Position numbers and translations under genes: made by a program. DNA of 35,798 nt from Hyphomicrobiales bacterium 4NK60-0047b. Lineage in GTDB: Bacteria > Pseudomonadota > Alphaproteobacteria > Rhizobiales > HXMU1428-3. Shown piece after piece: positions 15,139-34,127 of the stretch (the stretch's first letter is position 1; each line of letters begins with the position of its first letter). The notes below the pieces were generated by a model, which saw nothing but the letters and a program-made list of their open reading frames with translations, did not search any database and was not told where the DNA came from. The stretch covers positions 1 through 35,798 of the forward strand of contig BAABWY010000011.1 in NCBI GenBank assembly GCA_040367435.1, written 5' to 3'.

Positions 15139-15247
15139 TCTCACGGGCTATTCCACTGCTATCGCAGTGGGCCCTCCGAGGGGCTGCGCTTCCGCCGGAC
15201 AGCAAAGCTGTCATGTCCTGACGCCGAAGTGGCGTCACTCCTTCTTC
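15139..15247 (+). repeat. Modular multi-hairpin element upstream of recJ
   Basis: In order: linker CTCACGGGCTATT; hairpin CCACTGC/GCAGTGG; GCCCTCCGAGGGGC; hairpin GACAGC/GCTGTC; ATGTCC; hairpin TGACGCC-GAAGT-GGCGTCA; then CTCCTTCTTC. All stems pair perfectly. The left end lies 19 nt upstream of the recJ start codon. Confidence 0.85.
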
Positions 15248-15456
15248 TGTCCGCAAGTTTATACTTTACTCTAACGGCTCATTCGAAAGCTTAAATGTTT
15301 TATTGGCTAAGAGCATAACTCATTCGATTGAGAGGGCAATAGGGGAGTGAAATAGAGTGTTTATAACTCTTTTCCTATATTCTTGAAGCTCGTGCGTTCC
15401 GCTCAAGAGTGAATTTGGTTTTTGCGGGAAAGGAACGCTCTTTTGGGCTGCATTAT

Positions 15457-15570
15457 GAAGAAGGGAGTGCTCTTTTTCAGAGCACGGACATGGCGCTGCT
15501 AAGCGCCCGGCGCTTAGCGCCGCCCGTCGGAGGGCTTTTCGCTTCTTCAGCGAAAAAATAGCCCGTGAGA
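15457..15570 (-). repeat. Modular multi-hairpin element downstream of glpX
   Basis: Read on the minus strand it has the same linkers (CTCACGGGCTATT, GCCCTCCGA, ATGTCC, then CTCCCTTCTTC). The hairpins differ: TTTTCGCT/AGCGAAAA, two GGCGC/GCGCC stems, and GTGCTC/GAGCAC with a loop containing TGAAA. Its right end is 15 nt from the glpX stop codon. Confidence 0.85.
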
Positions 15571-15585
15571 CAGAAAAAAGCGTTT

Positions 15586-16551
15586 TTACGCTTCGCCGTT
15601 TACTTGTTTTTGTGTTTTCACCCAGCGCACAGATCCGGTGCTTACATGCATGATCAATGTTTCTGTTTCGATCATATCACCATCGCGGCGGACACCATCA
15701 AGCATTTGACCTGTTGTTACACCGGTTGCTGCAAAGATCACATCACCTTTGACCATGTCAGCAATAGAGTAGATTTTTGATAGATCTTCAATGCCAACTT
15801 TCGCAGCGCGTTCATAATGACTTTCATGTAATGGCGTTAAACGGCCTTCCATTTGCCCGCCAATTGAGCGAAGGGCAGAGGCAGCTAACACACCTTCAGG
15901 AGCACCACCAACGCCCATATACATATCAATACCAGTTTCAGCAGAGTCTGTTGTTTGGATGACACCAGCGATGTCACCATCACCGATTAATTTAACAGCT
16001 GCGCCCGCTTCTCTGACTTCTTCAATCAGCTTTCCGTGACGAGAGCGATCAAGGATACAAACTGTCAAATCATTGACAGATACATTCTTGGCATTTGCTA
16101 ACGCCTTCACGTTTTCTGTTGGAGATTGCTCCAAGCTAACCAAGCCTGGCTCAAAGCCTGGACCAATCGCTATTTTTTCCATGTAGATATCTGGTGCGTG
16201 AAGCAAGCTTCCGCCTTCAGCCATTGCCAGAACTGCAAGTGAATTTGGCATTGACTTAGCACAGAGCGTTGTGCCTTCCAATGGGTCAACTGCGATGTCG
16301 ACTTTTGGGCCTTTCTTGGTGCCTATTTCTTCACCGATGAAAAGCATTGGCGCTTCATCACGCTCACCTTCACCGATGACGACACGGCCATCTATGTCCA
16401 GACCATTTAATTCGCTGCGCATTGCGTCAACTGCGGCTTTATCTGCCGCCATTTCATCACCGCGTCCGCGTAATTTTGCAGCCTCAATTGCTGCAACTTC
16501 CGTTACACGCAATACATCCCAAACTAGGCTTTGATTTAATGGTTCTGACAT
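15586..16551 (-). CDS. glpX: Class II fructose-1,6-bisphosphatase
   Basis: 321 residues. It hydrolyses fructose 1,6-bisphosphate to fructose 6-phosphate for gluconeogenesis, in the cytoplasm and metal-dependent. Family motifs are clear: VVIGEGERDEAPML at about 58-70, the metal-binding DPLEGTT at 89-95, DRSRHGKLIEEVREAGA, and GVGGAPEGVLAASALR. It lies 123 bp downstream of hom on the same strand. The recJ-glpX-hom-aminotransferase order recurs in Rhizobiales. Confidence 0.95.
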   Translation of the reverse strand: MSEPLNQSLVWDVLRVTEVAAIEAAKLRGRGDEMAADKAAVDAMRSELNGLDIDGRVVIGEGERDEAPMLFIGEEIGTKKGPKVDIAVDPLEGTTLCAKSMPNSLAVLAMAEGGSLLHAPDIYMEKIAIGPGFEPGLVSLEQSPTENVKALANAKNVSVNDLTVCILDRSRHGKLIEEVREAGAAVKLIGDGDIAGVIQTTDSAETGIDMYMGVGGAPEGVLAASALRSIGGQMEGRLTPLHESHYERAAKVGIEDLSKIYSIADMVKGDVIFAATGVTTGQMLDGVRRDGDMIETETLIMHVSTGSVRWVKTQKQVNGEA

Positions 16552-16674
16552 TTTTTAACTCTTCGATCTTTCTTCTATTCATATGTGGCTAAGCTATATA
16601 ACTCATGCCATTGTTTTTTCTCAAATTAAAGCCTTTTTTCGACTTTAATTTTGTTTGTGATTAACGCCGCATTG

Positions 16675-18015
16675 TCATAATCGTTCAATGCGGATCATAT
16701 TTGGTTGGCCCACAATATGCCCATCTTCCTCAATTGCTTTCAAAGCTTCTGAGACTGCTTGCTCTGTTGTGTCATGAGTGATGATTACAACCGGGGCAGC
16801 AGCGACACCAGCTGCATCAATTTTCTCATCCGTCTCAGCTCCGTGACTACGCTGTACGATACTCTCCAATGAAATACCGAATTCTGCCATTCGCGTTGCC
16901 ACGGCTGCGAAGGTGCCTGGGCGATCAGAAAGGTTCAAGCGGACATAATACCCACCTTCATGAGCTTTCAAAGGTGCTCTTTGATATGGCGCCAATTTAC
17001 CTACTGGCATGCTGAAAACTGTTTTTGTGACATTAGCCGACTTATCAATACGGGCCGTTTCAATAAGATCTCCGACCACACTTGAAGCTGTTGGACCTTC
17101 ACCAGCGCCAGGGCCCACTTGCATAATTTTGCCGACATAATCACCGTCAACACAAACGCAGTTTGTCACACCCGAGACCTGACCAATCGCAGATTCGCTT
17201 GGGACAAGTGTTGGGTGCACACGCTGCTCGATGCCTTCATCTGTTTTCAAAGCTACGCCTAGCAATTTAATTCGATAGCCAAGATCGTCAGCTGCTTTGA
17301 TATCTTCAGGTGTGATTTTCTCAATGCCTTCGATATAGATGTCATCAAACGATGTTTCCGTGCCAAAGCTCAACGTGGTAAGCAAGGCCAATTTATGGGC
17401 TGCATCAATGCCGCCTACATCAAACGATGGATCAGCTTCAGCGTAGCCTTCAGCTTGTGCTGCCTTCAGGATTTCATCAAATGGTTTTCCTTCATTTTGC
17501 ATGGCGGTCATCATGTAATTACATGTGCCATTTAAAATGCCATAGACCCTTTGAATGCTGTTACCTGAAAGGCTTTCTTTGATGGATTTTACAATTGGAA
17601 TACCGCCAGCAACTGCTGCTTCAAACAACAGAGCGCAGCCATTTTCTTCAGCGAGTTTAGCAAGCTCAGTACTGTGGACCGCGAGCATAGCCTTGTTCGC
17701 AGTGACCACATCAAGACCGCGCTTTAGAGCTATTTTTGTCGCCTCTAAAGCTGGGCCATCTGTTCCGCCCGTGAGTTCAACATAAACATCAATGTCGCCA
17801 GACGTGGCTAATTCTTCTGGCGTGTCGAACCAACTATAGCCGCTGATATCGACGCCACGATCCTTGTTTTTGTCCCTTGCGCAAACGGCTGTGACCTTAA
17901 TTGGGCGTCCGATTTTGCGGGCAATGTCATCACCATTGCTGTGGTCTAGCATGCGGATAACGCCGCAGCCTACTGTTCCTAGGCCAGCTAGCCCTATTTT
18001 TAAAGGCTCATTCAT
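16675..18015 (-). CDS. hom: Homoserine dehydrogenase with ACT domain
   Basis: 446 residues. It reduces aspartate semialdehyde to homoserine, the branch point to threonine and methionine. The N-terminal Rossmann motif is GLAGLGTVGCGV. The catalytic half carries NGTCNYMMTAM and EADPSFDVGGIDAAHKLA, with the family's conserved Asp and Lys. A C-terminal ACT domain at about 355-435 (GYYVRLNLSDRPGTFAAVA) suggests feedback control by threonine. It follows the aminotransferase after 17 bp, so the two are probably co-transcribed. The product could feed the metY enzyme encoded at 23815. Confidence 0.96.
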   Translation of the reverse strand: MNEPLKIGLAGLGTVGCGVIRMLDHSNGDDIARKIGRPIKVTAVCARDKNKDRGVDISGYSWFDTPEELATSGDIDVYVELTGGTDGPALEATKIALKRGLDVVTANKAMLAVHSTELAKLAEENGCALLFEAAVAGGIPIVKSIKESLSGNSIQRVYGILNGTCNYMMTAMQNEGKPFDEILKAAQAEGYAEADPSFDVGGIDAAHKLALLTTLSFGTETSFDDIYIEGIEKITPEDIKAADDLGYRIKLLGVALKTDEGIEQRVHPTLVPSESAIGQVSGVTNCVCVDGDYVGKIMQVGPGAGEGPTASSVVGDLIETARIDKSANVTKTVFSMPVGKLAPYQRAPLKAHEGGYYVRLNLSDRPGTFAAVATRMAEFGISLESIVQRSHGAETDEKIDAAGVAAAPVVIITHDTTEQAVSEALKAIEEDGHIVGQPNMIRIERL

Positions 18016-18032
18016 TTTGATAATTTTCCGTA

Positions 18033-19247
18033 TTAACGTGCGATTGGCACAACGTTATGCATGTTTTTTGGCTCTTCGGCGAGAAATCTTTTTACATTTC
18101 TTGCTGCTTGGCGAATTCTTTGTTCATTTTCCACAAGTGCAATACGAACAAACCCTTCACCATATTCTCCAAAACCAATACCAGGAGCGACAGCGACATC
18201 AGCTTTTTCCAATAGAAGCTTAGAAAATTCTAATGATCCCATTTCCTTACAACTTTCAGGAATTGGCACCCATGCAAACATGGTTGCGGGTGGTGACGGG
18301 ATATCCCAGCCTACGCGCTGGAAATTGTCGACCAAACAATCACGTCGTTTTTTATAAAGTGACCGCATATCATCAACGCAGGATTGATCACCTTTAAGCG
18401 CCGCCGTTGCGGCAACCTGAATAGGTGTAAATGCACCATAATCAAGGTAAGATTTCACGCGGGCTAGTGCGCCGATTAATCGTTCATTACCGACAGCAAA
18501 GCCCATGCGCCAACCTGGCATTGAGTATGTTTTTGACATCGATGTGAATTCAACAGCCACATCTTTCGCCCCATCAACCTCAAGAATAGAGGGAGGTGGG
18601 TTATCATCAAAATAAACTTCCGAGTAAGCTAAATCTGACAGAAGGATCAGATCATTCTTTTTTGCATAAGCTACAACTTCTTTATAGAAATCGAGGCTTG
18701 CAACCTTTGCCGTTGGGTTTGATGGGTAATTTAGAACCAAAGCCACAGGTTTTGGCACTGAGAAACGCATTGCTCTATCCAACGCTTCAAGGAAGGTATG
18801 GTCTGGCTCTACAGGCAGATGGCGTATAACACCTCCGGAAATGATAAACCCAAACGCATGAATTGGGTAAGTCGGGTTTGGCACTAGCACCACGTCACCT
18901 GGAGCTGTGATGGCTTGCGCCATATTGGCAAAGCCTTCTTTTGAGCCGAGTGTTGCCACAACTTCTGTATCTGCGTTTAATTTCACACCAAAACGACGCT
19001 CATAATAAGCTGCCTGAGCTTTACGAAGCCCGGGGATTCCTTTTGATGCAGAATAACGGTGGGCACGTGGATCACGTACCGCTTCAACCATTTTCTCAAC
19101 GATATGCTCAGGCGTGGCACCATCCGGATTTCCCATGCCGAAATCAATAATATCCGCTCCGGCCGCTCGTGCATCTTGCTTTAAGCGGTTAACTTCAGCA
19201 AATACATAGGGGGGGAGCCGTTTGATACGGTGAAAATCGTCGAGCAC
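18033..19247 (-). CDS. Class I/II PLP-dependent aminotransferase (AlaC/aspartate aminotransferase-like)
   Basis: 404 residues. The fold-type I signature is present: PLP lysine Lys239 in TSMSKTYSMPGWRMG, the NYPSNPTA substrate/phosphate loop, and SDLAYSEVYF upstream. The closest recognised relatives are alanine/aspartate transaminases of the AlaC group, often labelled LL-diaminopimelate aminotransferase; substrate preference cannot be settled from sequence alone. The start is a GTG with a good GAGGA ribosome site 7-8 nt upstream. It sits 17 bp before hom on the same strand, which fits aspartate-family amino acid metabolism. Confidence 0.9.
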   Translation of the reverse strand: MLDDFHRIKRLPPYVFAEVNRLKQDARAAGADIIDFGMGNPDGATPEHIVEKMVEAVRDPRAHRYSASKGIPGLRKAQAAYYERRFGVKLNADTEVVATLGSKEGFANMAQAITAPGDVVLVPNPTYPIHAFGFIISGGVIRHLPVEPDHTFLEALDRAMRFSVPKPVALVLNYPSNPTAKVASLDFYKEVVAYAKKNDLILLSDLAYSEVYFDDNPPPSILEVDGAKDVAVEFTSMSKTYSMPGWRMGFAVGNERLIGALARVKSYLDYGAFTPIQVAATAALKGDQSCVDDMRSLYKKRRDCLVDNFQRVGWDIPSPPATMFAWVPIPESCKEMGSLEFSKLLLEKADVAVAPGIGFGEYGEGFVRIALVENEQRIRQAARNVKRFLAEEPKNMHNVVPIAR

Positions 19248-19491
19248 GAGAATTCCTCATTGATTTATAGGTTGAAAGATATGAGCGCTTTTAAGATGAA
19301 TTATGTAACACTTCATTCAATAAATGCATTCTCACCAAATTTGAGAGAGTTTATCTAATTTTTTGAAAAATTGGAAACATAAATCTCAGCATTTCATTCT
19401 AAATCGAATTTCGCTCTACAAACAGATTTGGTCAATCTTTTTTTAGTTTGTGTTGGTTGTTTTTAGAATGAAATAAGAGATGGGACGCTAT

Positions 19492-19746
19492 TTAGCGGCT
19501 TTCGATCTCTTTAACGGCGTCTTGTCTGTGAGTTTTTTTCTGTGTGTCTAAAAGCTCTGACAATAAATCTTGCTCTTTGGCGGTTAGGGCCTCATCGGCC
19601 TCGTCACGAGAAATAGACATATCTGGCCAAGGCAAAGTTGTCGTTGAACAACCCGCAAGCGACATTAGGCTCAACGCGGTTATGATAATGATGAGCGGTT
19701 GTCTAATATTATTAAAGAGACAATTATTTAAAAGGCCTTGTTTCAT
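19492..19746 (-). CDS. Small lipoprotein
   Basis: 84 residues with a basic N-terminus, a hydrophobic stretch (LIIIITALSLMSL) and a lipobox LAGC with Cys33, so it should be lipid-anchored to the envelope after cleavage. The mature ~50 residues are charged, predicted helical and end in a Lys/Glu-rich tail (LLSELLDTQKKTHRQDAVKE). Function unknown. The leader is somewhat long before the lipobox; no closer in-frame ATG has a better ribosome site. Confidence 0.7.
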   Translation of the reverse strand: MKQGLLNNCLFNNIRQPLIIIITALSLMSLAGCSTTTLPWPDMSISRDEADEALTAKEQDLLSELLDTQKKTHRQDAVKEIESR

Positions 19747-19792
19747 TATCTTCTGCTTGATTTAAGATTGATTACGCACACGAAATGTTTCA

Positions 19793-19835
19793 CTAGAGCA
19801 TAACCTTTTTAAATTGGTTCGACTTAATGCTCTAG
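19793..19835. repeat. CTAGAGCAT...ATGCTCTAG palindrome
   Basis: Nine-base perfect arms over a 25-nt interior. From memory, the AGAGCAT...ATGCTCT frame is a widespread intergenic repeat in Rhizobiales; the match is by recollection, not a search. A compensated variant is at 11182-11222. Confidence 0.65.
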
Positions 19836-19849
19836 TCATTTATTTTGAC

Positions 19850-19891
19850 GCACAATTTACAGATCTTCGTTGTACTCCGGTCTGATTGTGC
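19850..19891. repeat. GCACAAT...ATTGTGC inverted repeat
   Basis: Seven-base perfect arms 28 bp apart, adjacent to the previous palindrome and reminiscent of the GCACAAAA/TTTTGTGC repeat at 11282-11308. Confidence 0.45.
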
Positions 19892-20056
19892 TCAAGCGTA
19901 ACATTGTTCACTAAATATGGCTATTATTTGATTCTTTTACTTGCCCCAAGCAAAATCTGGTCCTCAAGTATAATATTACCCCATGAAGCGCTTTTTCTTT
20001 AACAGCTTTATTTGGATTTATGGAAATTACATATTTTTACAGTTAATCTATTTGGC

Positions 20057-20668
20057 TTATCCTCTCAAGATTGGGTAAAGCGAAGCAAGTAATAGAAATG
20101 CACAAAGATAATTGAAGATTTTTCTGCTTCTATCATTATGTATTATTCGCCTCATTTTTTCTCCCAAAGTTGCCCAGATATTCGTTGAAAAAATAGCTGC
20201 AAACACAAAGGCCCCGGCGACGATTGCGACATTGCCAATTTCCTGGCCCGATGGTGTGTAAAGACTGATAGCCGTTAAAGCCATTGTCCACGCTTTGGGA
20301 TTGATCCATTGAAAGGCCACAGCTTCCAGGAATGTCAGTGGTTTATTTTGAGGGGTATCAATTGTTAGCGTTTCTGTATTGGGTTTGCCAGCAGTAGCTA
20401 TTCGCCATGCCAAATATAGAAAATATAATGTGCAGCAAATTTTGAGAACCAAATAACTATTTGGGACCACATCAAACACCTTTGATGCCCCCATACCAAC
20501 AAGAAACACCATTAACGGAAAACCAATTCCGATGCCAAACATATGAGGAATTGTGCGCAATACCCCATAGTTCATGCCTGAGGCTAACAACATTATATTG
20601 TTCGGCCCTGGTGTGCATGTTGAGATCAATGCGAATAGAAATAGCGATATAAGCAGGTCATATGTCAT
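20057..20668 (-). CDS. LysE/RhtB-family amino acid exporter
   Basis: 203 residues with about five or six membrane helices. The N-terminal family signature is present (CTPGPNNIMLLASGMNYG), as is the central FQWINPKAWTMALTA. The family exports amino acids across the inner membrane; substrate unknown. It is transcribed divergently from an Lrp/AsnC regulator only 72 bp away, the usual arrangement in which the regulator controls the exporter in response to the amino acid. Confidence 0.9.
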   Translation of the reverse strand: MTYDLLISLFLFALISTCTPGPNNIMLLASGMNYGVLRTIPHMFGIGIGFPLMVFLVGMGASKVFDVVPNSYLVLKICCTLYFLYLAWRIATAGKPNTETLTIDTPQNKPLTFLEAVAFQWINPKAWTMALTAISLYTPSGQEIGNVAIVAGAFVFAAIFSTNIWATLGEKMRRIIHNDRSRKIFNYLCAFLLLASLYPILRG

Positions 20669-20740
20669 GGACCGATGTTAAATCGAACTCAGAGCAATTA
20701 GCTTGCTTTTATTCTGTATATATATATCATTTCACAATAT
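20669..20740. promoter_or_regulatory. Divergent promoter region between the LysE exporter and its likely Lrp regulator
   Basis: 72 bp, very AT-rich, with TATATATATATCATTT near the regulator. Neither gene has an evident Shine-Dalgarno sequence at its start, so one or both transcripts may be leaderless. The likely regulator binding site lies here, but no clear palindrome is seen. Confidence 0.5.
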
Positions 20741-21193: not shown

Positions 21194-21254
21194 AGTTGTT
21201 ATTACATTGCAGCCTCTAGAAATTATTTTCGCAATAATCTGATAATTACTAGCT

Positions 21255-23814: not shown

Positions 23815-25092
23815 ATGACCGAAGGACCAAACCAGAAATTTTCCACACTTGCTATTCATGCTGGCGCCGCTCCAGACCCTACAACAGGCGCTAGGGCTAC
23901 ACCTATTTACCAAACCAGTTCTTACGTTTTTGAAGATGTAGATCATGCGGCGTCTCTTTTTAATCTTGAGGCCTTTGGTAACATCTACACACGCTTGATG
24001 AACCCTAATAGCAATGTACTTGAAGAACGCATCACGGCGTTAGAGGGAGGAACAGCTGCACTCACCACAGCTTCTGGCCATGGGGCACAATTACTTGTCT
24101 TTCACACCTTAATGGAGCCCGGCGATGAATTTATCGCTGCTAAACAACTATATGGAGGGTCTCTCAATCAGTTTGGGCATAGTTTTAAAAAGTTTGGCTG
24201 GACGGCAAAATTTGCGGATATTGATGACCCGGCAAGTTTCCAAGCGCAGGTTACTGAAAAAACTAAAGCTATTTTTGTTGAATCCATTGCAAACCCGGGT
24301 GGTATCGTCACTGACCTTAAGGCCATTTCCGAGATAGCTAAAGCTGCTGGTGTTCCTTTAATCGTAGATAATACGCTAGCCACGCCTTATCTATGCCAGC
24401 CCAAAGAACATGGCGCAGATATCATTGTTCACTCCATGACAAAATTCTTAGGTGGGCATGGTAATTCACTTGGCGGCGTTCTTGTTGATTGTGGCACCTT
24501 TGATTGGATGAGTTCAGGTAAGTTTAAAACTCTTTCAACACCGTGCGATAGCTATCATGGCATGGTGCTTGGCGAAGCATTTGGACCGATTGCCCTTGCC
24601 ATTGCGTGCCGTGTTCTTGGCCTTCGTGATCTTGGACCCTGCATCTCCCCTTTTAATGCCTTTATGATTGCAACAGGCATGGAAACTCTGCCCCTTCGCA
24701 TGAAACAGCATTGTGAAAATGCACTCGAGGTTGCACGCTTTCTTTCAAACCATGAAAAGGTTGCTTGGGTGAATTATGCTGGTTTGCCTGATAATGCCTA
24801 TCATGAACGCGCCAAAACTTACTGCCCGCGCGGCGCCGGATCTGTTTTCACTTTTGGTCTCAAGGGTGGCTATGATGCTGGTGTGAATTTGGTGAATTCG
24901 GTTAATCTCTTTAGCCATCTGGCAAATGTTGGTGACACGCGCAGCTTGATCATTCACCCAGCCTCTACAACACACAGACAGCTTTCAGACGAAGATCGTA
25001 AAACCGCTGGTGCTGGTGATGATGTGGTTCGACTTTCTGTCGGCATTGAAGATGCACTCGATATCATCCAGGATTTGGAGGGGAATCTCTAG
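23815..25092 (+). CDS. metY: O-acetylhomoserine (thiol)-lyase / aminocarboxypropyltransferase
   Basis: 425 residues. This PLP enzyme of the Cys/Met metabolism family joins sulfide or a thiol to O-acetyl- or O-succinylhomoserine, giving homocysteine for methionine synthesis. PLP Lys210 lies in VHSMTKFLGGHGNSLGG; other signatures are LEGGTAALTTASGHGA, VDNTLATPYLCQP and SVGIEDALDIIQDLE. Its length matches the MetY group (~425) rather than the shorter MetZ. The acyl acceptor precursor derives from the homoserine made by the hom product. Strong ribosome site GGAGG 8 nt upstream. Confidence 0.93.
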   Translation: MTEGPNQKFSTLAIHAGAAPDPTTGARATPIYQTSSYVFEDVDHAASLFNLEAFGNIYTRLMNPNSNVLEERITALEGGTAALTTASGHGAQLLVFHTLMEPGDEFIAAKQLYGGSLNQFGHSFKKFGWTAKFADIDDPASFQAQVTEKTKAIFVESIANPGGIVTDLKAISEIAKAAGVPLIVDNTLATPYLCQPKEHGADIIVHSMTKFLGGHGNSLGGVLVDCGTFDWMSSGKFKTLSTPCDSYHGMVLGEAFGPIALAIACRVLGLRDLGPCISPFNAFMIATGMETLPLRMKQHCENALEVARFLSNHEKVAWVNYAGLPDNAYHERAKTYCPRGAGSVFTFGLKGGYDAGVNLVNSVNLFSHLANVGDTRSLIIHPASTTHRQLSDEDRKTAGAGDDVVRLSVGIEDALDIIQDLEGNL

Positions 25093-25097: not shown

Positions 25098-25392
25098 CTC
25101 ACGGGCTATTCTACTGCAAAGCAGGCCTACTTTTTAGTCGTGCTTCAGGTTGCCCACAAGCAACCGCACTGTTCTCTCTCACGGGCGATGGCAGCAAAGC
25201 TGCCGCGCTCTATTTACTCTCACGGGCTATTCCAAACGCTTATAGCGCTTGAACCTCCGAGGGGCGGTGCTTTTTTGCGATCAGCTTATCCGTACTCGCT
25301 CCGCTCCGTTCGGGCTGATCTTTTGCGCCGGGCTGCGCTAGCGCTTCGCAATGTCCTACCTTCCTGAGAGAGGGCAGTACTCCCTCTTCGTT
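25098..25392 (+). repeat. Three consecutive modular elements with a nested short hairpin
   Basis: The CTCACGGG start motif occurs three times (25098, about 25178 and 25219). The first copy has CTGC-AAA-GCAG, GCCTACTTTTTAGTC, then a short hairpin (25140-25169, outer GTGC/GCAC, inner GGTTGC/GCAACC). The second has GGCAGC-AAA-GCTGCC. The third has an 8-bp first stem with one mismatch, then GAACCTCCGAGGGGCG, a GATCAGC/GCTGATC stem (25279-25320), ATGTCC, and the CTCCCTCTTCG end. Confidence 0.8.
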
Positions 25393-25479: not shown

Positions 25480-25746
25480 CTAGCGGCGGAGCTTGCGACG
25501 GAAGTTTCTGCGGAATTTGCGGCCATTTTTGAATTTCTTAAATTTGAAGTGACCTTTTTTGTAGAATTTGTGGCCGTGATAACCGCGCTTATATTTGTAG
25601 CCATAGTTGTAACCGTAATAGTGGTTGTGGCCGTAGTGTTTTTTCCAGCCGCCAGCGCTTGCGCCTGTGGCTGATGCGGTTAGGGCTGTGAAGCTGATTG
25701 TTAGAATTGCGATTGCGCTTACGATCATTGTTTTTAAAGTGCTCAT
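25480..25746 (-). CDS. Small secreted His/Tyr/Gly/Lys-rich protein
   Basis: 88 residues. A signal peptide (MSTLKTMIVSAIAILTISF..., cleavage near ASA at about 31) precedes a mature ~57-residue chain almost entirely of Gly, Tyr, His, Lys, Arg and Phe (HYGHNHYYGYNYGYKYKRG, ending RRNFRRKLRR). It should be strongly basic and might bind metal, nucleic acid or polyanions; this is speculation from composition. I recognise no family. A GGAG ribosome site precedes the ATG. A composite hairpin repeat lies 20 nt upstream of the start, and the perfect terminator at 25419-25446 follows the gene, which argues it is expressed. Confidence 0.75.
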   Translation of the reverse strand: MSTLKTMIVSAIAILTISFTALTASATGASAGGWKKHYGHNHYYGYNYGYKYKRGYHGHKFYKKGHFKFKKFKNGRKFRRNFRRKLRR

Positions 25747-25971: not shown

Positions 25972-26300
25972 TGCGCTTCAGATGCCCACGAAGCATCCGC
26001 ATTATTTTTTATCTCTCACGGGCAATGGCAGCGGAGTTGCCGCCCTACGAGGTGCAACTGCTCACGCGTTGACGGTTTTTTTTAGTTGCGCTTTAGGTTG
26101 CCCACTTGCAACCGCGCCGAGGCCTACGTTTTTCGTTCTCAGCTGATTGAGGTCTTGCTTGGTGCTTCAGTTGCCCTCTCTTTTAAGTACGCCTCCAGAT
26201 GCCCACAATGCATCCGGCGCAAGCACCCCACGCTGTGCGGTGCTAGGCACAAGACGCCTCTGGCGTCATGTCCTATTGCCCGAAGAGGGCAATACTCCTT
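25972..26300 (+). repeat. Cluster of short hairpins and modular elements
   Basis: Short hairpins at 25972-26001 (outer TGCG/CGCA), 26088-26117 (GCGC/GCGC with GGTTGC/GCAACC) and 26191-26218 (GCC/GGC), the last inside an outer GGTGCTT/AAGCACC stem at 26161-26227. A modular start CTCACGGGCAATGGC is at 26014. A modular 3' end is at 26253-26300: GACGCC-TCT-GGCGTC, ATGTCC, ATTGCCC-GAAGA-GGGCAAT, then CTCCTTTTTC. Confidence 0.8.
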
Positions 26301-26399
26301 TTTCATATAAGAGACTTTTCTCTTTTTCATAGTGATTTGCTGTTTTTTAAAGGTGGCTTGGTTCAGCTGTTCACGGGAATGCGAGGATGAGTTAGGTCT

Positions 26400-26924: not shown

Positions 26925-26932
26925 TTAGTAGT

Positions 26933-26985
26933 AAAAACGTCAGATCATATTTACGCTTGTATGCTTGAATTGGTCTGGCGTTTTT
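26933..26985. terminator. Hairpin terminator between the repeat-peptide gene and the AraC regulator
   Basis: A 15-pair stem (AAAAACGTCAGATCA with TGGTCTGGCGTTTTT, two G-U pairs) around a 23-nt loop, with a T-run on the right and A-run on the left, so it could serve both converging genes. It lies 36 bp from the AraC-gene stop. Confidence 0.7.
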
Positions 26986-27021
26986 ATTGGGAGGCGCTGA
27001 TTTTTCTGAAGACGGATTGGT

Positions 27022-27864: not shown

Positions 27865-28011
27865 GATTTTAAAACTCTAACTCTTTTCATTTGTTCAATG
27901 CAAGAGAGCCTTAAAAAATTAGGTCTGTTTTTTGAAAGACTTTTATTCTCTTCTTCTATTAGATGATTTACCTTTAACTCTTCTTAGTTACAAAATTCGC
28001 GGAGCTTTATC

Positions 28012-28986
28012 ATGCCTCTATTTTCATTAGATGACTTACACCAAGCAATTAACTTTGTTCAAAAGCTTGTTCCACCAACAGCGACCCATCATTGGCCTCT
28101 ATTATCGAAACGCACTGGTGTGCATGTCTATGTAAAGCATGAAAACCATACACCTATTGGAGCGTTTAAGGCACGCGGTGTTCCGCTTTTTGTTCATGAA
28201 CTTTCCCAATCTGGTGTACCTCTCAAGGGATTAGTCGCTGCTACACGCGGCAATCATGGTCAAGCTGTCGCACTAGCAGCTACACAGCATGGCATTCCGA
28301 GTGTGATTGTTGTGCCTGAGGGAAACTCACTTGAAAAAAATGCAGCTATGGAAGCTTTTGGCGGCGAGCTTATTATTGCTGGGGCTGACTTTGAAGCAAG
28401 CCGTGTCGTTGCTGCACAAATTAGTGAAGAGCGCGACTACCATATGGTCCCTCCTTTTCATGCTGACATAGTCAAAGGCGTTGCGACTTATGCTCATGAA
28501 CTCTTTCAATCAGCCCCTCCGCTTTCTGCCGTATATGCTCCTATTGGCATGGGTTCCGGTATTTGCGGTTTGATAACAGTGCGCGACTTGCTCGGACTTG
28601 AGACTGAAATAATCGGCGTTGTTGCAGAGAATGCGGCTTCTTATGGCTTATCGTTTGATGCGGGAGAAATCATTGGAACAGATACGGTTTCAACTTTTGC
28701 TGATGGCATTGCTTGCCGCGCACCAGATAAAGGCGCCTTTGAGATTATCAAACATGGTGCGTCGCGGGTTATTCAATTGAAGGAAGATGAAATCGCAAAT
28801 GCGATGCGTTATTTCTATTCTGACACTCATAACATCGCAGAGCCTGCGGCGGCTGCCTCCCTTGCAGGTTTGATCCGTGAGCAAGAGCAGTATGCCGGGA
28901 AAAATGTCGGTGTTATTTTATCAGGCTCGAATGTTGACGCTCCTGTTTACCAAGAGGTGATGGCAGGGAAGACGCCTGTGGTTTAG
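28012..28986 (+). CDS. PLP-dependent threonine/serine dehydratase-like enzyme
   Basis: 324 residues, fold-type II PLP family. Lys53 in PIGAFKARG is the expected PLP lysine, TRGNHGQAVA is the substrate loop, and GMGSGICG is the phosphate-binding glycine loop. It has no C-terminal regulatory ACT domain, so it is like catabolic threonine dehydratases or the hydroxyectoine-utilisation enzyme EutB rather than biosynthetic IlvA. No other ectoine genes are nearby, so the specific substrate stays open. A GGAG ribosome site precedes the ATG. Hairpin repeats begin 12 bp after its stop. Confidence 0.88.
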   Translation: MPLFSLDDLHQAINFVQKLVPPTATHHWPLLSKRTGVHVYVKHENHTPIGAFKARGVPLFVHELSQSGVPLKGLVAATRGNHGQAVALAATQHGIPSVIVVPEGNSLEKNAAMEAFGGELIIAGADFEASRVVAAQISEERDYHMVPPFHADIVKGVATYAHELFQSAPPLSAVYAPIGMGSGICGLITVRDLLGLETEIIGVVAENAASYGLSFDAGEIIGTDTVSTFADGIACRAPDKGAFEIIKHGASRVIQLKEDEIANAMRYFYSDTHNIAEPAAAASLAGLIREQEQYAGKNVGVILSGSNVDAPVYQEVMAGKTPVV

Positions 28987-28998
28987 TTTTGTTTATTT

Positions 28999-29090
28999 TC
29001 TCTCACGGCTATGCTTTTTAGAGGCGCTTTAGATTGCCCACTAGCAACCGCTTTTTAGTGGCGCTTCAGGTTGCCCACAAGCAACCGCGC
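28999..29090. repeat. Modular start motif plus two short hairpins, the second inside ctaA
   Basis: CTCTCACGGCTATG at 28999 leads into a short hairpin at 29024-29051 (inner GATTGC/GCAACC, one mismatch). A second follows at 29061-29090 (outer GCGC/GCGC, inner GGTTGC/GCAACC, loop CCACAA). The ctaA reading frame, on the minus strand, runs through the second hairpin and ends in the first. Confidence 0.85.
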
Positions 29091-30135
29091 TGTATAAATT
29101 CCGGCTGTGCCAGAGGCTGGCGCTTAGGAGGATGACGGCGCCACCTTGGTGGTAGAGCGCGAGGTCTAGGGGTACGAATTGCAAGAGAGTTACGATACCC
29201 AGCGCGATTTGCGCAAGAGTTAGGACAAGCAACGGCATTGCGCCTTTGATAGCCAATTCACTTTTTGAAAACAAACACTGGATAAAATGCAAGAGCACGA
29301 CGATGGCGACCACATATGCGATCATGCGGTGATTGAACTGAACCGTGAGGACATTTTCAAACAGGTTTTTCCAAAAAGGTGTCATCACACCGAGACCTTC
29401 TGGAATGAAACGACCATCCATTAACGGCCAGGTGTTGTGGACTTTACCAGCTTTTAACCCTGCAACAAAAGCACCTGCGATGATTTGGAAAAAGATTAGC
29501 CCGGTGATGAAGTATGCCGGGCTCGCTAGCGAGTTTTTGTCCTGAGCTTGTACACTTTCTTCTCGTCTCAACCCTATAGCGACCCAGAAGATATAAGCAA
29601 ACAACAAGACGGCTAAGCCTAAGTGAGCGGCGAGGCGGTATTGGCTGACATCAACGCGCTCAGTTAAACCACTTGCGACCATGTACCATCCCACAAAACC
29701 TTGCAGGCCGCCGCCGAGGAACATGAGCCAGAATTTTGGTTTTAATGAACTTTCAACGCGCTTGGTGAACAGAAAGAATAAAAAGGGGAGCAAAAAAGCG
29801 ACGCCAATGAAGCGACCTAAAAAGCGATGTGCCCATTCCCACCAGAAGATGGATTTAAACTCATTAAGGCTCATTCCTTCATTAATTCTGGTATATTGAG
29901 GGATTTGTTTGTATTTCTCAAAGGCATCGTTCCAGTCTTCGATATTCAAAGGTGGAATGGCGCCGACAATTGGTTTCCACTCAGTAATCGAAAGTCCTGA
30001 GCCGGTGAGGCGTGTGGCACCGCCAACGATGACCATTGCAAAAATAAGTGCGCAGATAATAAAGAGCCAGAGCTGAATGGCTGGACGGGCTTTGATTTGT
30101 TTTTCTGTTGGAGTGTTTGCTACAGAACTTCCCAT
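29041..30135 (-). CDS. ctaA: Heme A synthase (COX15/CtaA family)
   Basis: 364 residues with about eight membrane helices. It oxidises heme O to heme A for cytochrome aa3 oxidase in the inner membrane. The alphaproteobacterial COX15 pattern is clear: GGATRLTGSGLSITEWKPI near the N-terminus, WEWAHRFLGR, an internal repeat with FNHRMIAYVVA, and ALYHQGGAVILLSASLWHSR near the end. The histidines in these motifs are the expected heme ligands. The last ~15 residues (AVACGQPEAPLKSGC) are encoded entirely by the dispersed hairpin repeat and are not part of the family. The ATG lies 22 nt from another pair of repeats. It is divergent from the DUF2842 gene. Confidence 0.94.
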   Translation of the reverse strand: MGSSVANTPTEKQIKARPAIQLWLFIICALIFAMVIVGGATRLTGSGLSITEWKPIVGAIPPLNIEDWNDAFEKYKQIPQYTRINEGMSLNEFKSIFWWEWAHRFLGRFIGVAFLLPFLFFLFTKRVESSLKPKFWLMFLGGGLQGFVGWYMVASGLTERVDVSQYRLAAHLGLAVLLFAYIFWVAIGLRREESVQAQDKNSLASPAYFITGLIFFQIIAGAFVAGLKAGKVHNTWPLMDGRFIPEGLGVMTPFWKNLFENVLTVQFNHRMIAYVVAIVVLLHFIQCLFSKSELAIKGAMPLLVLTLAQIALGIVTLLQFVPLDLALYHQGGAVILLSASLWHSRNLYSAVACGQPEAPLKSGC

Positions 30136-30157
30136 TCGGAGATTTACCTCTTTTAGC

Positions 30158-30265
30158 GTTCCTTCAGATGCCCACTACGCATCCGGAACATTTTTAGCAT
30201 TCCTTCAGATGCCTACTACGCATCCGGAACATAGCGTTCCTTAAGATACTCACGATGATACGCAC
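30158..30265. repeat. Two short hairpin repeats plus a degenerate third, upstream of ctaA
   Basis: Copies at 30158-30189 and 30199-30230, exactly 41 bp apart, both with outer GTTCC or ATTCC pairing GGAAC and inner GATGC/GCATC. A decayed third copy begins with GTTCC at 30236. The first begins 22 nt upstream of the ctaA start codon. Confidence 0.85.
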
Positions 30266-30363
30266 ACCTGCATATCCCTCTCAGATGGGGTTTATAGCGC
30301 AGTGTTTTGGTCTCGTATAGGTTTATCCAGTATTTTTAATGGTGGGACATATTAGCGCGGTTT

Positions 30364-30380
30364 GTTTATACCGTATAAAC
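30364..30380. promoter_or_regulatory. Operator-like palindrome GTTTATA-CCG-TATAAAC
   Basis: Seven-base perfect arms around a 3-nt centre, with further GG/CC pairing outside after a short gap. It lies about 98 bp upstream of the DUF2842 start. The cognate protein is unknown. Confidence 0.35.
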
Positions 30381-30477
30381 CCTAATATTAGTATGGCGCT
30401 CTTCGGTCTTGTTCATTATAAGAGGAGCGGCTAAACTTACATTTCGTCCACTTTTTACTTTAAAGGCCTTTTGTTTT

Positions 30478-30675
30478 ATGAACCCTCGACTGAAACGATT
30501 AATCGGCTCACTTCTATTTGCGCTGTTTCTTATTTTTCATATTACCCTTGTTATCGCGCTGGCTTATGGCCTTTTGCCAGGCACATCGCAGGGTATTCAG
30601 CTTATCTTTATGGCTGTGGCGGGGACAATTTGGGTTTTGCCAGCGGCTTATATTATTAAGTGGATGAATGGGTAG
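30478..30675 (+). CDS. DUF2842 small membrane protein
   Basis: 65 residues from the ATG at 30478; an upstream in-frame start at 30409 adds residues unlike the family. Two membrane helices (LIGSLLFALFLIFHITLVIA and IQLIFMAVAGTIWVLPAAYI) separated by a GLLPGTSQ turn match the alphaproteobacterial DUF2842 family. The protein is of unknown function but regularly sits next to ctaA/COX15, which suggests, without proof, a link to cytochrome oxidase biogenesis. A weak ribosome site (AAAGG) lies about 12 nt upstream. Confidence 0.8.
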   Translation: MNPRLKRLIGSLLFALFLIFHITLVIALAYGLLPGTSQGIQLIFMAVAGTIWVLPAAYIIKWMNG

Positions 30676-30682
30676 CTTTTTT

Positions 30683-30792
30683 CTCTCACGGCTATTCTGC
30701 CGCTGAAGCGGCAGGCCTACGAGGTGCGGCGCAACGCGCCGGACGCCCCTGGCGTCATGTCCCCCAGCCGAAAAGGCTGGGCTCCTTCTTCG
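30683..30792 (+). repeat. Complete modular multi-hairpin element filling a convergent gap
   Basis: The clearest copy. Linker CTCTCACGGCTATT; hairpin CTGCCGC-TGAA-GCGGCAG; GCCTACGAGGTGC; hairpin GGCGC-AAC-GCGCC; hairpin GACGCC-CCT-GGCGTC; ATGTCC; hairpin CCAGCC-GAAAA-GGCTGG; then GCTCCTTCTTCG. It begins 7 bp after one stop codon and ends 11 bp before the opposing one. Confidence 0.9.
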
Positions 30793-30803
30793 TTTAGCAC
30801 CAT

Positions 30804-31238
30804 CTAGTTTTGTTCATTTTTAGTTTGTTTTTGTTCGTGGAAGGTGACGCCGGGGCTGGTTCTGAAGACGTGTTGGATTAGTTTTATGGCGATGTTTGGT
30901 TTTTCTGGGTGTTGATCTTGATACACTCTTATGGCCTCATCTTTTTCAAAATAGACCCGAAACAGTAAATCTCCTCGAAATGGTAGCTCTTCAGGATTTC
31001 CTACCCTCTCCTCTTTATCTGCATTCCTTTTTATAATCTGCTCACTTTGCCAAGTTTCATGTCTTTTTGCTTCTTGTTTTTTTACTTCGATCTTTTTCAT
31101 GGAAATCTGATACCAAAAGTAGAGTGCTAAGCAGCTAAGGAGAAACAGAGGCGGTACCACAATCATCAAAGCCTTTATGCCCTCACCCAAGGATTGATAG
31201 GTATCAAACACCTCTTTCCAGAACTCTATATTTTGCAT
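30804..31238 (-). CDS. Small membrane-anchored protein of unknown function
   Basis: 144 residues from the ATG at 31238, which has GAGGGGG 9 nt upstream; an in-frame GTG at 31256 overlaps that ribosome site and is rejected. A membrane helix lies at about 23-44 (LMIVVPPLFLLSCLALYFWY), followed by a charged region rich in Lys, Glu and Gln that may be coiled coil. A more globular C-terminal part follows. No family recognised. It is divergent from two XRE regulators. Confidence 0.65.
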   Translation of the reverse strand: MQNIEFWKEVFDTYQSLGEGIKALMIVVPPLFLLSCLALYFWYQISMKKIEVKKQEAKRHETWQSEQIIKRNADKEERVGNPEELPFRGDLLFRVYFEKDEAIRVYQDQHPEKPNIAIKLIQHVFRTSPGVTFHEQKQTKNEQN

Positions 31239-31331
31239 GATGTGTATCCCCCTCACTCTTCCACAACAATAACACTAAATATGTATTATAGTACATGGTA
31301 AATGTTGAGCTATCACAGCTCACTATGTCTC

Positions 31332-31535
31332 ATGGAAATCAAAAAGAAATTCGGCTCGAATGTAAGAGACTTGAGGAAGCTAGCGAACATTTCTCAGGAA
31401 GAACTTGCTTTGCGTCTCAATGCCGACCAAGCCTATGTTAGCCGCATCGAAGCTGGACAAATGAATGTCACTTTGGAGACAATCGACGAAATTGCCAAAG
31501 CGCTTAATGTTTCAGCTAAAGAGTTTTTTGAATGA
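31332..31535 (+). CDS. XRE-family helix-turn-helix regulator
   Basis: 67 residues from the ATG at 31332; an upstream ATG at 31302 is possible but adds no family sequence, and neither has a good ribosome site. Nearly the whole protein is a Cro/cI-type helix-turn-helix (VRDLRKLANISQEELA, then DQAYVSRIEAGQMNVTLETI). It is followed after 18 bp by a second XRE gene, probably in one operon. Confidence 0.8.
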   Translation: MEIKKKFGSNVRDLRKLANISQEELALRLNADQAYVSRIEAGQMNVTLETIDEIAKALNVSAKEFFE

Positions 31536-31553
31536 TTTTTTTAGGAGCACTCA

Positions 31554-31796
31554 GTGAATTCTGTTCATTCCACTCTCTACACTCAGCTGATCGCAGGCTT
31601 AAAACAAGCTCGTCTTGATGCTGATCTTACTCAAGTGGAACTTGCTGAGCGCTTAGACAAGCCTCAACCTTACATCGCAAAAATTGAAGGTTGTGAGCGC
31701 CGTTTAGACATTGCAGAATTTGTTGAATATGCCACAGCTCTTGGCCATGAACCCGATGCCTTGTTTAAAACGTTGCTTCTTAATGTGAAGCTGTAG
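31554..31796 (+). CDS. Second XRE-family helix-turn-helix regulator
   Basis: 80 residues starting at GTG 31554, supported by AGGAG 6-7 nt upstream. The helix-turn-helix is LKQARLDADLTQVELA followed by LDKPQPYIAKIEGCERRLDI, a pattern similar to the preceding gene but clearly diverged. Such small XRE proteins act as repressors or antitoxins; no toxin is adjacent. It converges on the pentapeptide-repeat gene with about 20 bp between. Confidence 0.82.
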   Translation: MNSVHSTLYTQLIAGLKQARLDADLTQVELAERLDKPQPYIAKIEGCERRLDIAEFVEYATALGHEPDALFKTLLLNVKL

Positions 31797-31817
31797 AAAA
31801 CTCCCACTATTGTTAAC

Positions 31818-33662
31818 CTACTTAATCTTGAACTGGTTGCGGATTGCGAGCAGGAGTAGGAAGATGAAGAGTAGGCTTAGGAGTGAGTGGGCTATTCCTT
31901 GGACGGCGGCTTTGAAGGGGATGTCTGTTTTTGTGGTGTCTGCTTTCGTTGACTTCGCCTGATAGGTTCTTTTGATTTTTGGGTCGTATGGTTTGGGCTT
32001 GTTTTCAGAGTCTCCGTTTTTGTTCGTGCCATTTTTGTTAAGTCCGTAGAGACAGAGCTCGGCTTGTTTGACGATGTTTGTTTTGGTTAGCCCTAGGATG
32101 AGCAATGAGTTTTTCAGGCCGATTGTGTAGGCGGCTTGTTTTGGGGTGAGCTGGCTGTTGTGGCATTTGGTTGTATCAACTAGCCCAGCGCCTGAGAGAG
32201 TTAGGTTGGCAAAGAGCCAAAGGCAGGCGAACCACCAGAGAGTTGGACGGATGAAAGAACGACCAAAATCTGAAAAGGCTTCATAAAAGACACCTGCCCA
32301 ATAGCGCATTGAACTTGCTATCCCTTTTTTCCAAGGGAAGAAGAAGTCCGTGATGTGTCTTCGCGAGCGGATTTCTCCGGCGAAGAACTTCATTTCATTT
32401 TCATGATCATGCGCCTGAATGGCGAGACGCTTGAGAGCCCGGTAGTGGGCTTCTTCGTCTGGGTTCAGGCGTTTGTTGGTGAATTTATTCCAGATGTGTT
32501 TAAGTATCTCACCCTTGTGATAGAGCTTTCGATAATTTGAAGGTGTTAATTTGTAGACAGACCTCCAAAACAGTCTCATAAGGTAAGCTCTATACTGTAA
32601 ATTCCACCAATATCGTTGCCGTTTTAATGAACTTTGAATTTTTTTTAAGGGAAATGGATAATTCTCATATAGTGGTGCTGGCAACAATTCGATATTGTCT
32701 AAACGAGGACTTTCTGCAAAGTTAGCTTGCAAGAAGTTTGGAATGCCACTGTTAAATTTGCAACTTTCCAAAGAGAAATGACTAGTCGATTTAATAGCTA
32801 AAAAACTAGCATTTGATTTGAAGTTAACATCTTCAAAAGCTGTGTATCCATTAAATTCAGCTAAGTTGAACAACACTTCTTTATGAAACTTAGATTTTGT
32901 AAAATTTGAGTTTCTATTAAATTTTGTTTCACCGAAGTTAGAACTCCCTTCAAATATCACGTCAGCAAAATCAACAAAGTCATTAAAAATTCCATTGCTA
33001 AATTTTACATCATCAAAAAATTTAACTTCATTTAAGAATACAAACTTATCAAATTTAAATTCATCAAAAATAATTTCTTTAAAAAATTTAGCATTCTCAA
33101 AATGCGCTTGCTTGTTAAAAGCTACATTAAAAAAATGAGACCGTTCATAAAACCTACAATTAGAGAAATTCACTAAGCCATGATAACTGGCTCCATTCAT
33201 ACTTGTTGGAAAGCAAAAGTGTGTATTGGAAAAGTCCAAGTCAGAAGGAAAAATATAATTACTAAAGTCTATATAACCCTGTTCTATAAAATTCTCTCTA
33301 AACGATGGATTTATTTTCTTAGCCTGATCAATGTTGTTTTGAAATCTTGGGATCACAAACTTTTTTTTTGAAAAGATAAAGTTAGAAAAATCGACTAAAC
33401 ATTCTTCAAGCCATTCCTGAGTTTCGGGGTTAGAACTTTTTGTATAATTTTTCCCCGCCTTATCTCCAGTTAGCACCAAAACATTATCCACTTCCCACTT
33501 ACCAGAGTTTAATAGTTTTTTTTTGTCTTCTAATTTTTTTCTTGCCCATTTGTTCCAGATCTCTCTGCCTTGCAAAAACCGGTCTAAGTGTTTTTGGGTT
33601 TGTTCGTCTATTTCGCGGGCGGGCTTTGTTTCTTGGCTGGTTGGTGTTTTGGGCTCTGACAT
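31818..33662 (-). CDS. Pentapeptide-repeat membrane protein
   Basis: 614 residues. From about 85 to 330 runs an irregular pentapeptide-repeat region of the A/N-xx-F type (examples ANFxxxxF, FNKQAHFENAKFFKE, KFNRNSNFTKSKFH), expected to form a right-handed quadrilateral beta-helix. A charged linker follows, then two C-terminal membrane segments at about 470-490 (WWFACLWLFANLTLSG) and 583-609 (IAHSLLSLLFIFLLLL). Such proteins occur widely with mostly unknown roles. The coding region is more AT-rich than its neighbours. Signal peptide not evident at the N-terminus; weak ribosome site. Confidence 0.8.
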   Translation of the reverse strand: MSEPKTPTSQETKPAREIDEQTQKHLDRFLQGREIWNKWARKKLEDKKKLLNSGKWEVDNVLVLTGDKAGKNYTKSSNPETQEWLEECLVDFSNFIFSKKKFVIPRFQNNIDQAKKINPSFRENFIEQGYIDFSNYIFPSDLDFSNTHFCFPTSMNGASYHGLVNFSNCRFYERSHFFNVAFNKQAHFENAKFFKEIIFDEFKFDKFVFLNEVKFFDDVKFSNGIFNDFVDFADVIFEGSSNFGETKFNRNSNFTKSKFHKEVLFNLAEFNGYTAFEDVNFKSNASFLAIKSTSHFSLESCKFNSGIPNFLQANFAESPRLDNIELLPAPLYENYPFPLKKIQSSLKRQRYWWNLQYRAYLMRLFWRSVYKLTPSNYRKLYHKGEILKHIWNKFTNKRLNPDEEAHYRALKRLAIQAHDHENEMKFFAGEIRSRRHITDFFFPWKKGIASSMRYWAGVFYEAFSDFGRSFIRPTLWWFACLWLFANLTLSGAGLVDTTKCHNSQLTPKQAAYTIGLKNSLLILGLTKTNIVKQAELCLYGLNKNGTNKNGDSENKPKPYDPKIKRTYQAKSTKADTTKTDIPFKAAVQGIAHSLLSLLFIFLLLLAIRNQFKIK

Positions 33663-33843
33663 GGCTTCACTTAATGGGTTTTCTCGAGGTTCTTCTTTGT
33701 CTCTTTTCTTTTTACTTCTTCACTCAAAGTAAAGTTTGCATTGATGTCAAATGGTTAGAGTATTGAGGGGCGTTATTTTGGGGGAGTGTTGTATTTTGTT
33801 GGCTGGATGAGGGTGTGTTGGAGGGATACGGGATGATAGTTTC

Positions 33844-33991
33844 TCTCTCACGGCTATTCCTCGCTACGCTCGGGCCTACTTTTTTGCTGTGCTTCAGTTG
33901 CCCACCTGCAACCGCACTGTGCAGCACTCACCCCGGGCTGCGCTGGCGCTTCGCCATGTCTTGACGCCGAAGTGGCGTCACTCCTCCTTCG
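33844..33991 (+). repeat. Modular element with nested short hairpin
   Basis: Linker CTCTCACGGCTATT; an imperfect first hairpin; GCCTACTTTTTT; a short hairpin (33889-33917, outer GTGC/GCAC, inner GTTGC/GCAAC); ATGTC; hairpin TGACGCC-GAAGT-GGCGTCA at 33962-33980, identical to the one at 15219-15237; then CTCCTCCTTCG. Confidence 0.85.
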
Positions 33992-34041
33992 TAAAGGGAG
34001 ATAGTGCTTTTATCTTTGGGAGCTTCGTGGAGAGTACTGAG

Positions 34042-34127
34042 CGAAAAACGTAGGCCGAATGGCCGTCAGCGCTTAGCGCTGCACCTCCTAGGGCGGCCAC
34101 TTTGTGGCCATTGCCCGTGAGAGAAAA
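34042..34127 (-). repeat. Modular element downstream of the polysaccharide deacetylase gene
   Basis: On the minus strand: CTCTCACGGGCAAT; hairpin GGCCAC-AAA-GTGGCC; GCCCTAGGAGGTGC; hairpin CAGCGC-TAA-GCGCTG; a GGCC/GGCC stem; GGCCTACGTTTTTCG. The same start and GGCCTACGTTTTTCG word occur in the cluster at 26013-26150. Its right end is 16 nt from the deacetylase stop. Confidence 0.8.

Follow-up and report, generated by a model that had tools for sequence, protein, structure and literature searches.

A multi-hairpin, REP-like interspersed DNA element in Hyphomicrobiales that may work as single-stranded DNA at the replication fork

Elements of the IS200/IS605 type insert 3' to a fixed short target without making a duplication. 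Passages of the published accounts describe their orientation as following replication, with the lagging-strand template preferred (PMC5371812), and their hairpins as being recognised as single-stranded DNA (ssDNA) (PMC6006769). Repetitive extragenic palindromes (REPs) are described in parts of three papers as short, high-copy extragenic palindromes that form hairpin DNA, carry compensatory stem changes and occur in clusters (PMC3116915, PMC6006769, PMC3733652). Repeated hairpin elements, some doubled via tandem insertion, are reported in part of a study of fungal and sponge mitochondria (PMC2800124). Here we analysed a 35,798-nucleotide stretch of DNA from Hyphomicrobiales bacterium 4NK60-0047b (the window; assembly GCA_040367435.1, contig BAABWY010000011.1, positions 1 to 35,798, forward strand), which forms contig C11 of the genome labelled G000 (3.47 Mb in 26 contigs). 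The window holds several copies of a non-coding DNA element of about 110 bp, termed type A, made of a string of hairpins between short fixed linkers. We give a probability of roughly one half to the reading of type A as an interspersed, REP-like DNA element with multiple hairpins and with a function as ssDNA in the lagging-strand template.

Type A resembled the REP, BIME and REPIN families, which are served by TnpA-REP (RAYT), in its high-copy palindromes, hairpin DNA, compensatory stem changes and clusters, as far as the available parts of the sources describe them. It differed in being a string of five helices with fixed linkers, whereas a REP is one hairpin or an inverted pair, and in keeping one orientation per contig, whereas the abstract of PMC2817692 describes REPs as alternating. 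Type A also exchanged whole hairpins, and G000 is without RAYT. Inspection by eye of the 5' feet of aligned A copies and of S copies (S is a second palindrome family described below) showed no GTAG/CGTC tags, and no motif search was run for them. With non-autonomous IS200/IS605 (Y1, ssDNA) elements, as the available passages portray them, type A shared hairpins that would be recognised as ssDNA and an orientation that follows replication, the direction of replication being judged from base skew. Unlike them, it was found without a tnpA in its genome and without a parent bearing an open reading frame (ORF) in the stretches scanned, and it has several variable hairpins with palindromes of two kinds (S and K) in their loops. 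The mitochondrial double hairpin elements were similar in their repeated hairpins and tandem doubling, but part of that report describes conserved stems and varying loops, whereas in type A the stems varied and the linkers were fixed (PMC2800124); the words 'orientation' and 'same strand' are absent from the available text of that paper. As the tested defining features of both bacterial families (a resident Y1 enzyme and a parent element) were missing, type A is better seen as a variant than as a plain member. We consider that it works like an ssDNA element of the REP/IS200 type, with a real chance of its being something newer, and a literature search of open-licence PMC papers (CC0, CC BY, CC BY-SA) returned no description of it.

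The 5' part of type A read (T-run)-TCT-CTCACGG(G)CTATT, hairpin 1 and G(C)CCT(C/A)CGAGG(G/T)GC (in a looser consensus CC(T/C)xCGxGG(G/T)GC), so that a T-run and then TCT stood in front of the element, and the 3' part read hairpin 3, hairpin 4, ATGTCC, hairpin 5 and CTCC(C)TTCTTCG. The GGC or GGGC of linker 1 paired with GCC or GCCC behind hairpin 1, and the two lengths mostly changed jointly. The termini (CTCAC at the start, CTTCTTC at the end) were not the terminal inverted repeats expected of a miniature inverted-repeat transposable element (MITE) of the DDE kind. A shorter form, type B, ran CTCACGGGCAATGGC ... CCTACGAGGTGC or CCTAGGAGGTGC ... CTACGTTTTTCG. Its first part was as in type A and its end was GACGGCC...GGCCTACGTTTTTCG, and it lacked both ATGTCC and CTCCTTCTTCG. 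A preliminary description of the window, made from its letters, had proposed seven elements sharing four linkers; two of the seven, at 26015-26135 and 34042-34121, proved to be type B and so do not have all four. Its picture of fixed linkers with swappable stems was supported, the linkers keeping a fixed order and the stems varying by copy. The GAA-type loop it ascribed to the last hairpin was frequent but not fixed. Two tandem arrays were also seen: a 177-bp unit (a mini element plus type A) repeated twice with a third start at L045 (G000:C5:110543-110909), and three tandem A copies in G000 against two in the sister genome G003 at C7:129643-130029.

The linkers were abundant elsewhere in the genome, as that description required. 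Model R1 matched all 150 copies scored among 804 candidates, making 150 a lower bound, and seven other members of the genus carried from 27 to at least 150 type A copies each. The exact pattern was found in eight of eight genomes of this uncultured genus and in none of the 53 genomes taken from elsewhere in the order. Genome-wide, linker 1 with ATGTCC behind it gave 17 exact matches compared to 0 for the reversed pattern, linker 1 with at most one mismatch gave 72 compared to 2 for the control, and CTCACGGGCTATT with at most three mismatches occurred 17 times in the window compared to 6.7 expected, a number reached in 0 of 100 shuffles. A scan of named genome contigs found the linker pattern in 63 stretches of metagenome-assembled Hyphomicrobiales, in genomes designated Methyloligella sp. 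DHS20C07, Rhodomicrobium sp. DHS20C08, HXMU1428-3, OFTM222, OFTM213, OFTM288 and IP29b_bin.21. The exact pattern had zero matches in viral contigs, and blastn with one window copy as query had zero matches in plasmids and phages. Beyond the genus, matches to model R1 were few (G059, 5; G008, 3; G009, 4; G015, 0). Nine loci of these distant relatives were read, and six combined a CTCACG start with a CTCCG-GGGC core, their linkers and ends being different; two of the six adjoin each other. A search of 800 kb of G059 and G008 gave three matches at E 0.001, indicating that distant relatives are rare there. Examples outside the genus lie at G059:C2:341240, at G008:C1:575107 and in G009 (L170, L189). 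These rare relatives suggest a wider origin in the order and an expansion within this genus.

Type A copies were strongly oriented. Among the 150 scored copies, 144 had the same orientation within their contig, compared to 107 in the best of 10,000 shuffles (C1, 37 minus and 3 plus; C2, 27 minus and 1 plus; C3, 17 plus and 0 minus; C7, 23 plus and 0 minus), and 52 of 55 copies agreed in G004. Orientation was related to base skew. Judged by the mean strand-balanced GC skew of third codon positions, the copies of all 11 contig groups tested (from G000, G003 and G004) lay on the G-rich strand, and the skew was positive for the element strand in 75 of 80 stretches. The G-rich strand is presumably the leading strand; dnaA lies at C5:256785. 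Gene direction does not set element orientation: the upstream gene was co-directional in 34 cases and opposed in 28 in G000 (19 and 15 in G003), and only 3 of 68 elements overlapped an ORF of at least 150 aa. One-way orientation relative to replication suggests that the elements act as ssDNA at the fork rather than as RNA.

Stem pairing was assessed in 45 copies and 29 pairs (the copies are 45 of the 46 rows that a regular expression requiring the linkers matched, so that linker conservation in this set is partly built in and stem pairing is not). The stems differed between copies yet remained paired, as first proposed, with 93.7% of cells paired compared to 73.3% in shuffles and 35-43% with slid partners. 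Both sides had changed in 265 cells (75.5 shuffled, 31-52 slid), and double changes were present in 23 of 29 pairs. The count of further pair types was less clear, at 56 compared to 51.5 in shuffles, with 20 of 500 shuffles attaining 56. Folded as DNA on the element strand, three window copies were 3.9 to 5.3 standard deviations below shuffles. Such covariation, together with a stable RNA consensus fold (-40.6 kcal/mol) and the position of some copies just behind stop codons (a stop at 25092 before the element at 25098, and a stop at 15586 before the element end at 15569), could be read as a structured non-coding RNA or an mRNA-end element under selection for its RNA fold, and a structured RNA was one of the two readings first offered. 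Selection on an RNA fold tolerates G.U pairs and does not tolerate A.C. Over the five helices of 109 distinct rows from G000, G.U and A.C were equal, at 67 each, after exclusion of 5 to 18 gappy or unfolded rows for each helix; the rows are related copies whose cells are not independent. By helix the counts of G.U and A.C were 30 and 6 for H0, 4 and 10 for H1, 13 and 24 for H3, 13 and 8 for H4 and 7 and 19 for H5. A model-free count of hairpins 1 and 5, which dropped 21 of 113 and 7 of 163 hairpins as unfolded, gave 16 G.U and 23 A.C. The tRNA control (25 of 26 tRNAs) gave 25 G.U and 1 A.C, with some tilt to G.U from an acceptor-stem filter that scored G.U as paired. Equal G.U and A.C indicate that the pairing is not maintained as RNA; the stems pair at the DNA level. 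In H1, H3 and H5 together A.C exceeded G.U (53 compared to 24), opposite to what an RNA from this strand would show. The excess equals G.U on the other strand, so a bottom-strand hairpin is still conceivable, and the version of the argument with an RNA or hairpin of the opposite strand, in which A.C becomes G.U, is weakened. Rfam matched three tRNAs only in the window and nothing in the element. With orientation also independent of the genes, we rejected the RNA reading and regard it as improbable. Covariation in stems is commonly accepted as proving that an RNA is functional. The very strong covariation here is a counter-example, because G.U equals A.C and orientation follows replication skew, and the G.U/A.C count combined with a strand test offers searches for RNAs an inexpensive safeguard.

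Hairpin exchange was evaluated by comparing orthologous sites in G000 and G003, which were colinear where compared with a mean identity of 90.3-92.5%. We used 19 hand-picked pairs with 76 hairpins. Arms were identical in 36 hairpins, 17 had one-sided changes, 8 had one or two compensated pairs, 6 were replaced whole and 9 were unfolded in one genome. Of 417 paired positions, 31 had changed on both sides and 29 otherwise. At C7:111088 hairpin 1 and linker 2 were replaced and the adjoining upstream bases differed while the remainder was nearly identical, and at C6:191160 hairpin 4 was swapped with compensated changes in hairpins 3 and 5. One cluster locus could be followed in G000, G002 and G006. 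Hairpin 5 with its linkers was identical in all three, G006 differed in hairpin 4, an S palindrome lay in hairpin 1 of G000 and G006, and a K palindrome lay in hairpin 3 of G006. G003 was without the whole cluster and the other four genus genomes gave no full match; as the site empty in G003 is filled in the other three, this reads as loss and not as an A insertion. The hairpins behaved as independent modules: the arms of hairpins 1, 3, 4 and 5 showed no linkage beyond shuffles in the 87 of 109 distinct rows that had all four arms (lowest tail 181 of 2000, for H1 with H5), and a test with a stricter pattern, which parsed 33 copies, agreed. The suggestion that stems recombine between copies as cassettes was supported by this lack of arm linkage and by the six hairpins replaced whole. 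A further explanation is that the hairpins are formed and renewed by replication template switching alone, through local duplication and strand-polar correction of arms and with no transposition. Passages of PMC8794818 describe template switching as able to create and maintain perfect stems, and the multi-base compensated changes at orthologous sites and the tandem copies of S and A fit it. But dispersal would be needed as well to account for the 150 or more scattered copies that keep the same linkers in the same order, and identical arms recurred in many copies within the genome, which argues for exchange between copies and not for fresh arms. We therefore consider template switching alone distinctly doubtful.

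The palindrome S is a second family, unrelated to A in sequence (TTTTTAGTGGCG-CTTCAG-GTTGC-CCACnn-GCAAC-C-GCGC). Its exact pattern had 309 copies in the genome compared to 0 for the control, and its size fits a REP palindrome of 20-40 bp, whereas type A, at about 110 bp, has several hairpins. S agreed with the orientation of A in 58 of 59 cases on the contigs tested, did so in 93 of the 100 places listed (all on C1 and C2, from the total of 309), and all 13 S cores that a wider pattern found in the window were on the + strand. Length differences between G000 and G003 (not polarised, from an indel listing filtered for alignment noise) involved S beside a T-rich stretch and within hairpin loops; K was involved too, in the hairpin 3 loop of an A copy other than the K-bearing one in the window. 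In the three S cases the empty site was without a T5 run, so that the T-run seems to come with S, and no target duplication was evident by eye at the S differences. The same genomes carry palindromic MITEs (TAGAGC...GAATTC...) that we take to be RIME-like, a name not matched by a tool. Like the RIME-like palindromic MITEs of Rhizobiales they occur alongside A and some carry an A element, and unlike A they have different sequence and ends. Copies carrying A lie at L012 (G000:C6:196390), L001, L033, L155 and L200, and one was a 211-bp insertion that G000 has and G003 lacks. Four of the six wrong-way A copies lay within such a MITE, which is able to move whole. By eye, in the loci read, five of six MITE-borne copies were opposite to their contig's orientation (eight copies were flagged by pattern and five accepted, with L155 added). 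A wrong-way copy is thus tolerated inside a MITE, making it more likely that the orientation bias arises at insertion.

Several results weigh against an A element that works as ssDNA in the lagging-strand template. The equation of the G-rich strand with the leading strand is an assumption, and no switch of orientation was seen inside any contig. Plain GC skew gave weak or contrary values (-0.010 for C7 and -0.020 for the C5 loci, with copies on the + strand; +0.060 for the C8 locus, with copies on the - strand), and being weak and mixed it was set aside in favour of the third-codon measure. H0, and slightly H4, tilted to G.U, in H0 probably because GGC and GGGC variants were misaligned there. 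One-sided changes were about as common as double ones at orthologous sites. The site C7:22402, which is possibly not the same copy in both genomes, accounted for three replacements out of six and for 12 of the 31 positions changed on both sides, and without it 3 of 72 hairpins were replaced. It and C7:37962, the latter outside the count of 76 hairpins, might each be different copies at one site. No Y1 transposase (PF01797) was detected in G000 at E <= 0.001, and no reverse transcriptase (PF00078), as expected for a derivative of a group II intron or retron, at the same cut-off in a search of G000 alone. Y1 was above the cut-off in one of eight genus genomes, with two genes in G003, and neither S nor an end or middle motif occurred in the 3.3-kb loci around these. 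We accordingly rejected the idea that the element is spread by a Y1 transposase or reverse transcriptase resident in the genome, none being detected in G000 and the G003 genes not lying beside A or S. No ORF-bearing version of the element was found in the stretches scanned. An autonomous version inferred from four separated 'orphan' end pairs was also rejected, as all four starts were complete elements missed by the pattern (three resolved by sequence letters and one by a model match). No clean new A insertion was seen, the differences involving A being a MITE carrying A and a tandem copy, so that A may now be mostly immobile, with S and K still changing. Of the two readings first offered, a mobile element under structural selection fits best, with the selection at the level of ssDNA, and what is missing from it is an enzyme and a clean new A insertion.

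The element was also more conserved than its surroundings. The flanks were compared in 22 orthologous pairs, and pooled over the 16 that were >90% identical the element had 95.0% identity compared to 91.7% for the flanks, which could reflect a selected function. This favours the main rival, in which the lagging-strand template would carry a chromosomal signal with strand polarity, under selection, and selection and not insertion would keep the orientation; KOPS, Chi and a single-strand priming hairpin are examples of strand-polar signals. The 144 of 150 copies in one orientation, the many orthologous sites sharing copies and the identity of hairpin 5 and its linkers across three species at one locus are consistent with it. 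Against such a signal, S has the same orientation with an unrelated sequence and sits in A hairpins, MITE-borne wrong-way copies persist, G003 is without one site, and genus members range in copy number from 27 to at least 150, though assembly quality differs. We regard a selected signal as unlikely, though it is the alternative to be taken most seriously.

For the preferred reading, a replication-coupled ssDNA element, the following mechanism is proposed. The fork would expose the lagging-strand template, on which the element could fold into its string of hairpins, and the target of recognition would be hairpin shape together with the unpaired linkers. The recogniser would be a putative strand-specific nuclease or transferase (HUH-like in behaviour) or the replication machinery itself. 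Copies would join T-rich single-stranded stretches and hairpin loops, and joining at such sites would give one orientation relative to the fork. Hairpins may then be renewed one by one via conversion or template switching, the fixed linkers providing homology; such renewal would keep both arms matched while the sequence changes. The skew-related orientation, the pairing as DNA, the independence of the hairpins, some replacement of whole hairpins and the S and K palindromes in loops were observed; we infer the enzyme, the ssDNA intermediate, the route of conversion and the movement of A itself. A tentative extension, possible though speculative, is a new class of replication-coupled ssDNA elements that spreads and evolves without Y1, in which linkers serve as joints for recombination or template switching, hairpins serve as cassettes, at least two palindrome families of unrelated sequence, A and S (perhaps also K), share fork-oriented insertion, and elements nest in loops. 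If the mechanism is true, the element provides a natural record, replicated over many loci in sister species, of hairpin exchange and renewal at replication forks, and it points to a new fork-coupled DNA-inserting activity.

The window elements of the preliminary description were confirmed by sequence reading and covariance search with small shifts in coordinates. The cleanest copy was a type A element at 30685..30791 (+; 114.4 bits to model R1), with a DNA fold of 30686-30795 at z = -3.9. Type A with complete linkers and hairpins was also found at 15140..15247 (+; 110.1 bits), and a type A element in the minority orientation at 15457..15569 (-; 112.3 bits), its 5' end 16 bp from the glpX stop. 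The span first given as one element at 25098-25392 was composite. It held a truncated element with linker 1, hairpin 1 and the start of linker 2 (25098..25130, +; by sequence reading and covariance search), directly 3' of it an S palindrome with a T-run (25131..25171, +), a one-hairpin fragment with the linker 1 variant CTCACGGGCGATG (25178..25206, +), and a type A element (25219..25389, +; 43.2 bits) with a K palindrome (GATCAG...CTGATC; 25279..25320, +) within hairpin 3. The span given as 26013-26300 resolved into a type B element ending in CTACGTTTTTCG (26015..26135, +; 19.0 bits), with an S palindrome in its last hairpin (core 26091..26113, +), and a type A 3' half with hairpins 3-5 only (26211..26304, +; 53.7 bits). 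At 33847..33990 (+; 40.3 bits) lay a type A element in which an S palindrome (core 33892..33913, +) separates linker 2 from hairpin 4, and a type B element in the minority orientation followed at 34042..34121 (-; 37.8 bits). Three S cores (3795, 3836 and 3938) lay away from these elements at 3795..3960 (+).

Outside the window, the two Y1 genes of G003 (L231 and L235) lie at G003:C1:15047 and 11499, the second flanked by AATTACGGTGACAGTTTACTT repeats. In the window, an 88-aa ORF at 25480-25746 (-), with no Pfam match at E 0.001, lies between two element clusters, and a 614-aa protein with a pentapeptide-repeat match (Pentapeptide_3) is encoded at 31818-33662 (-).

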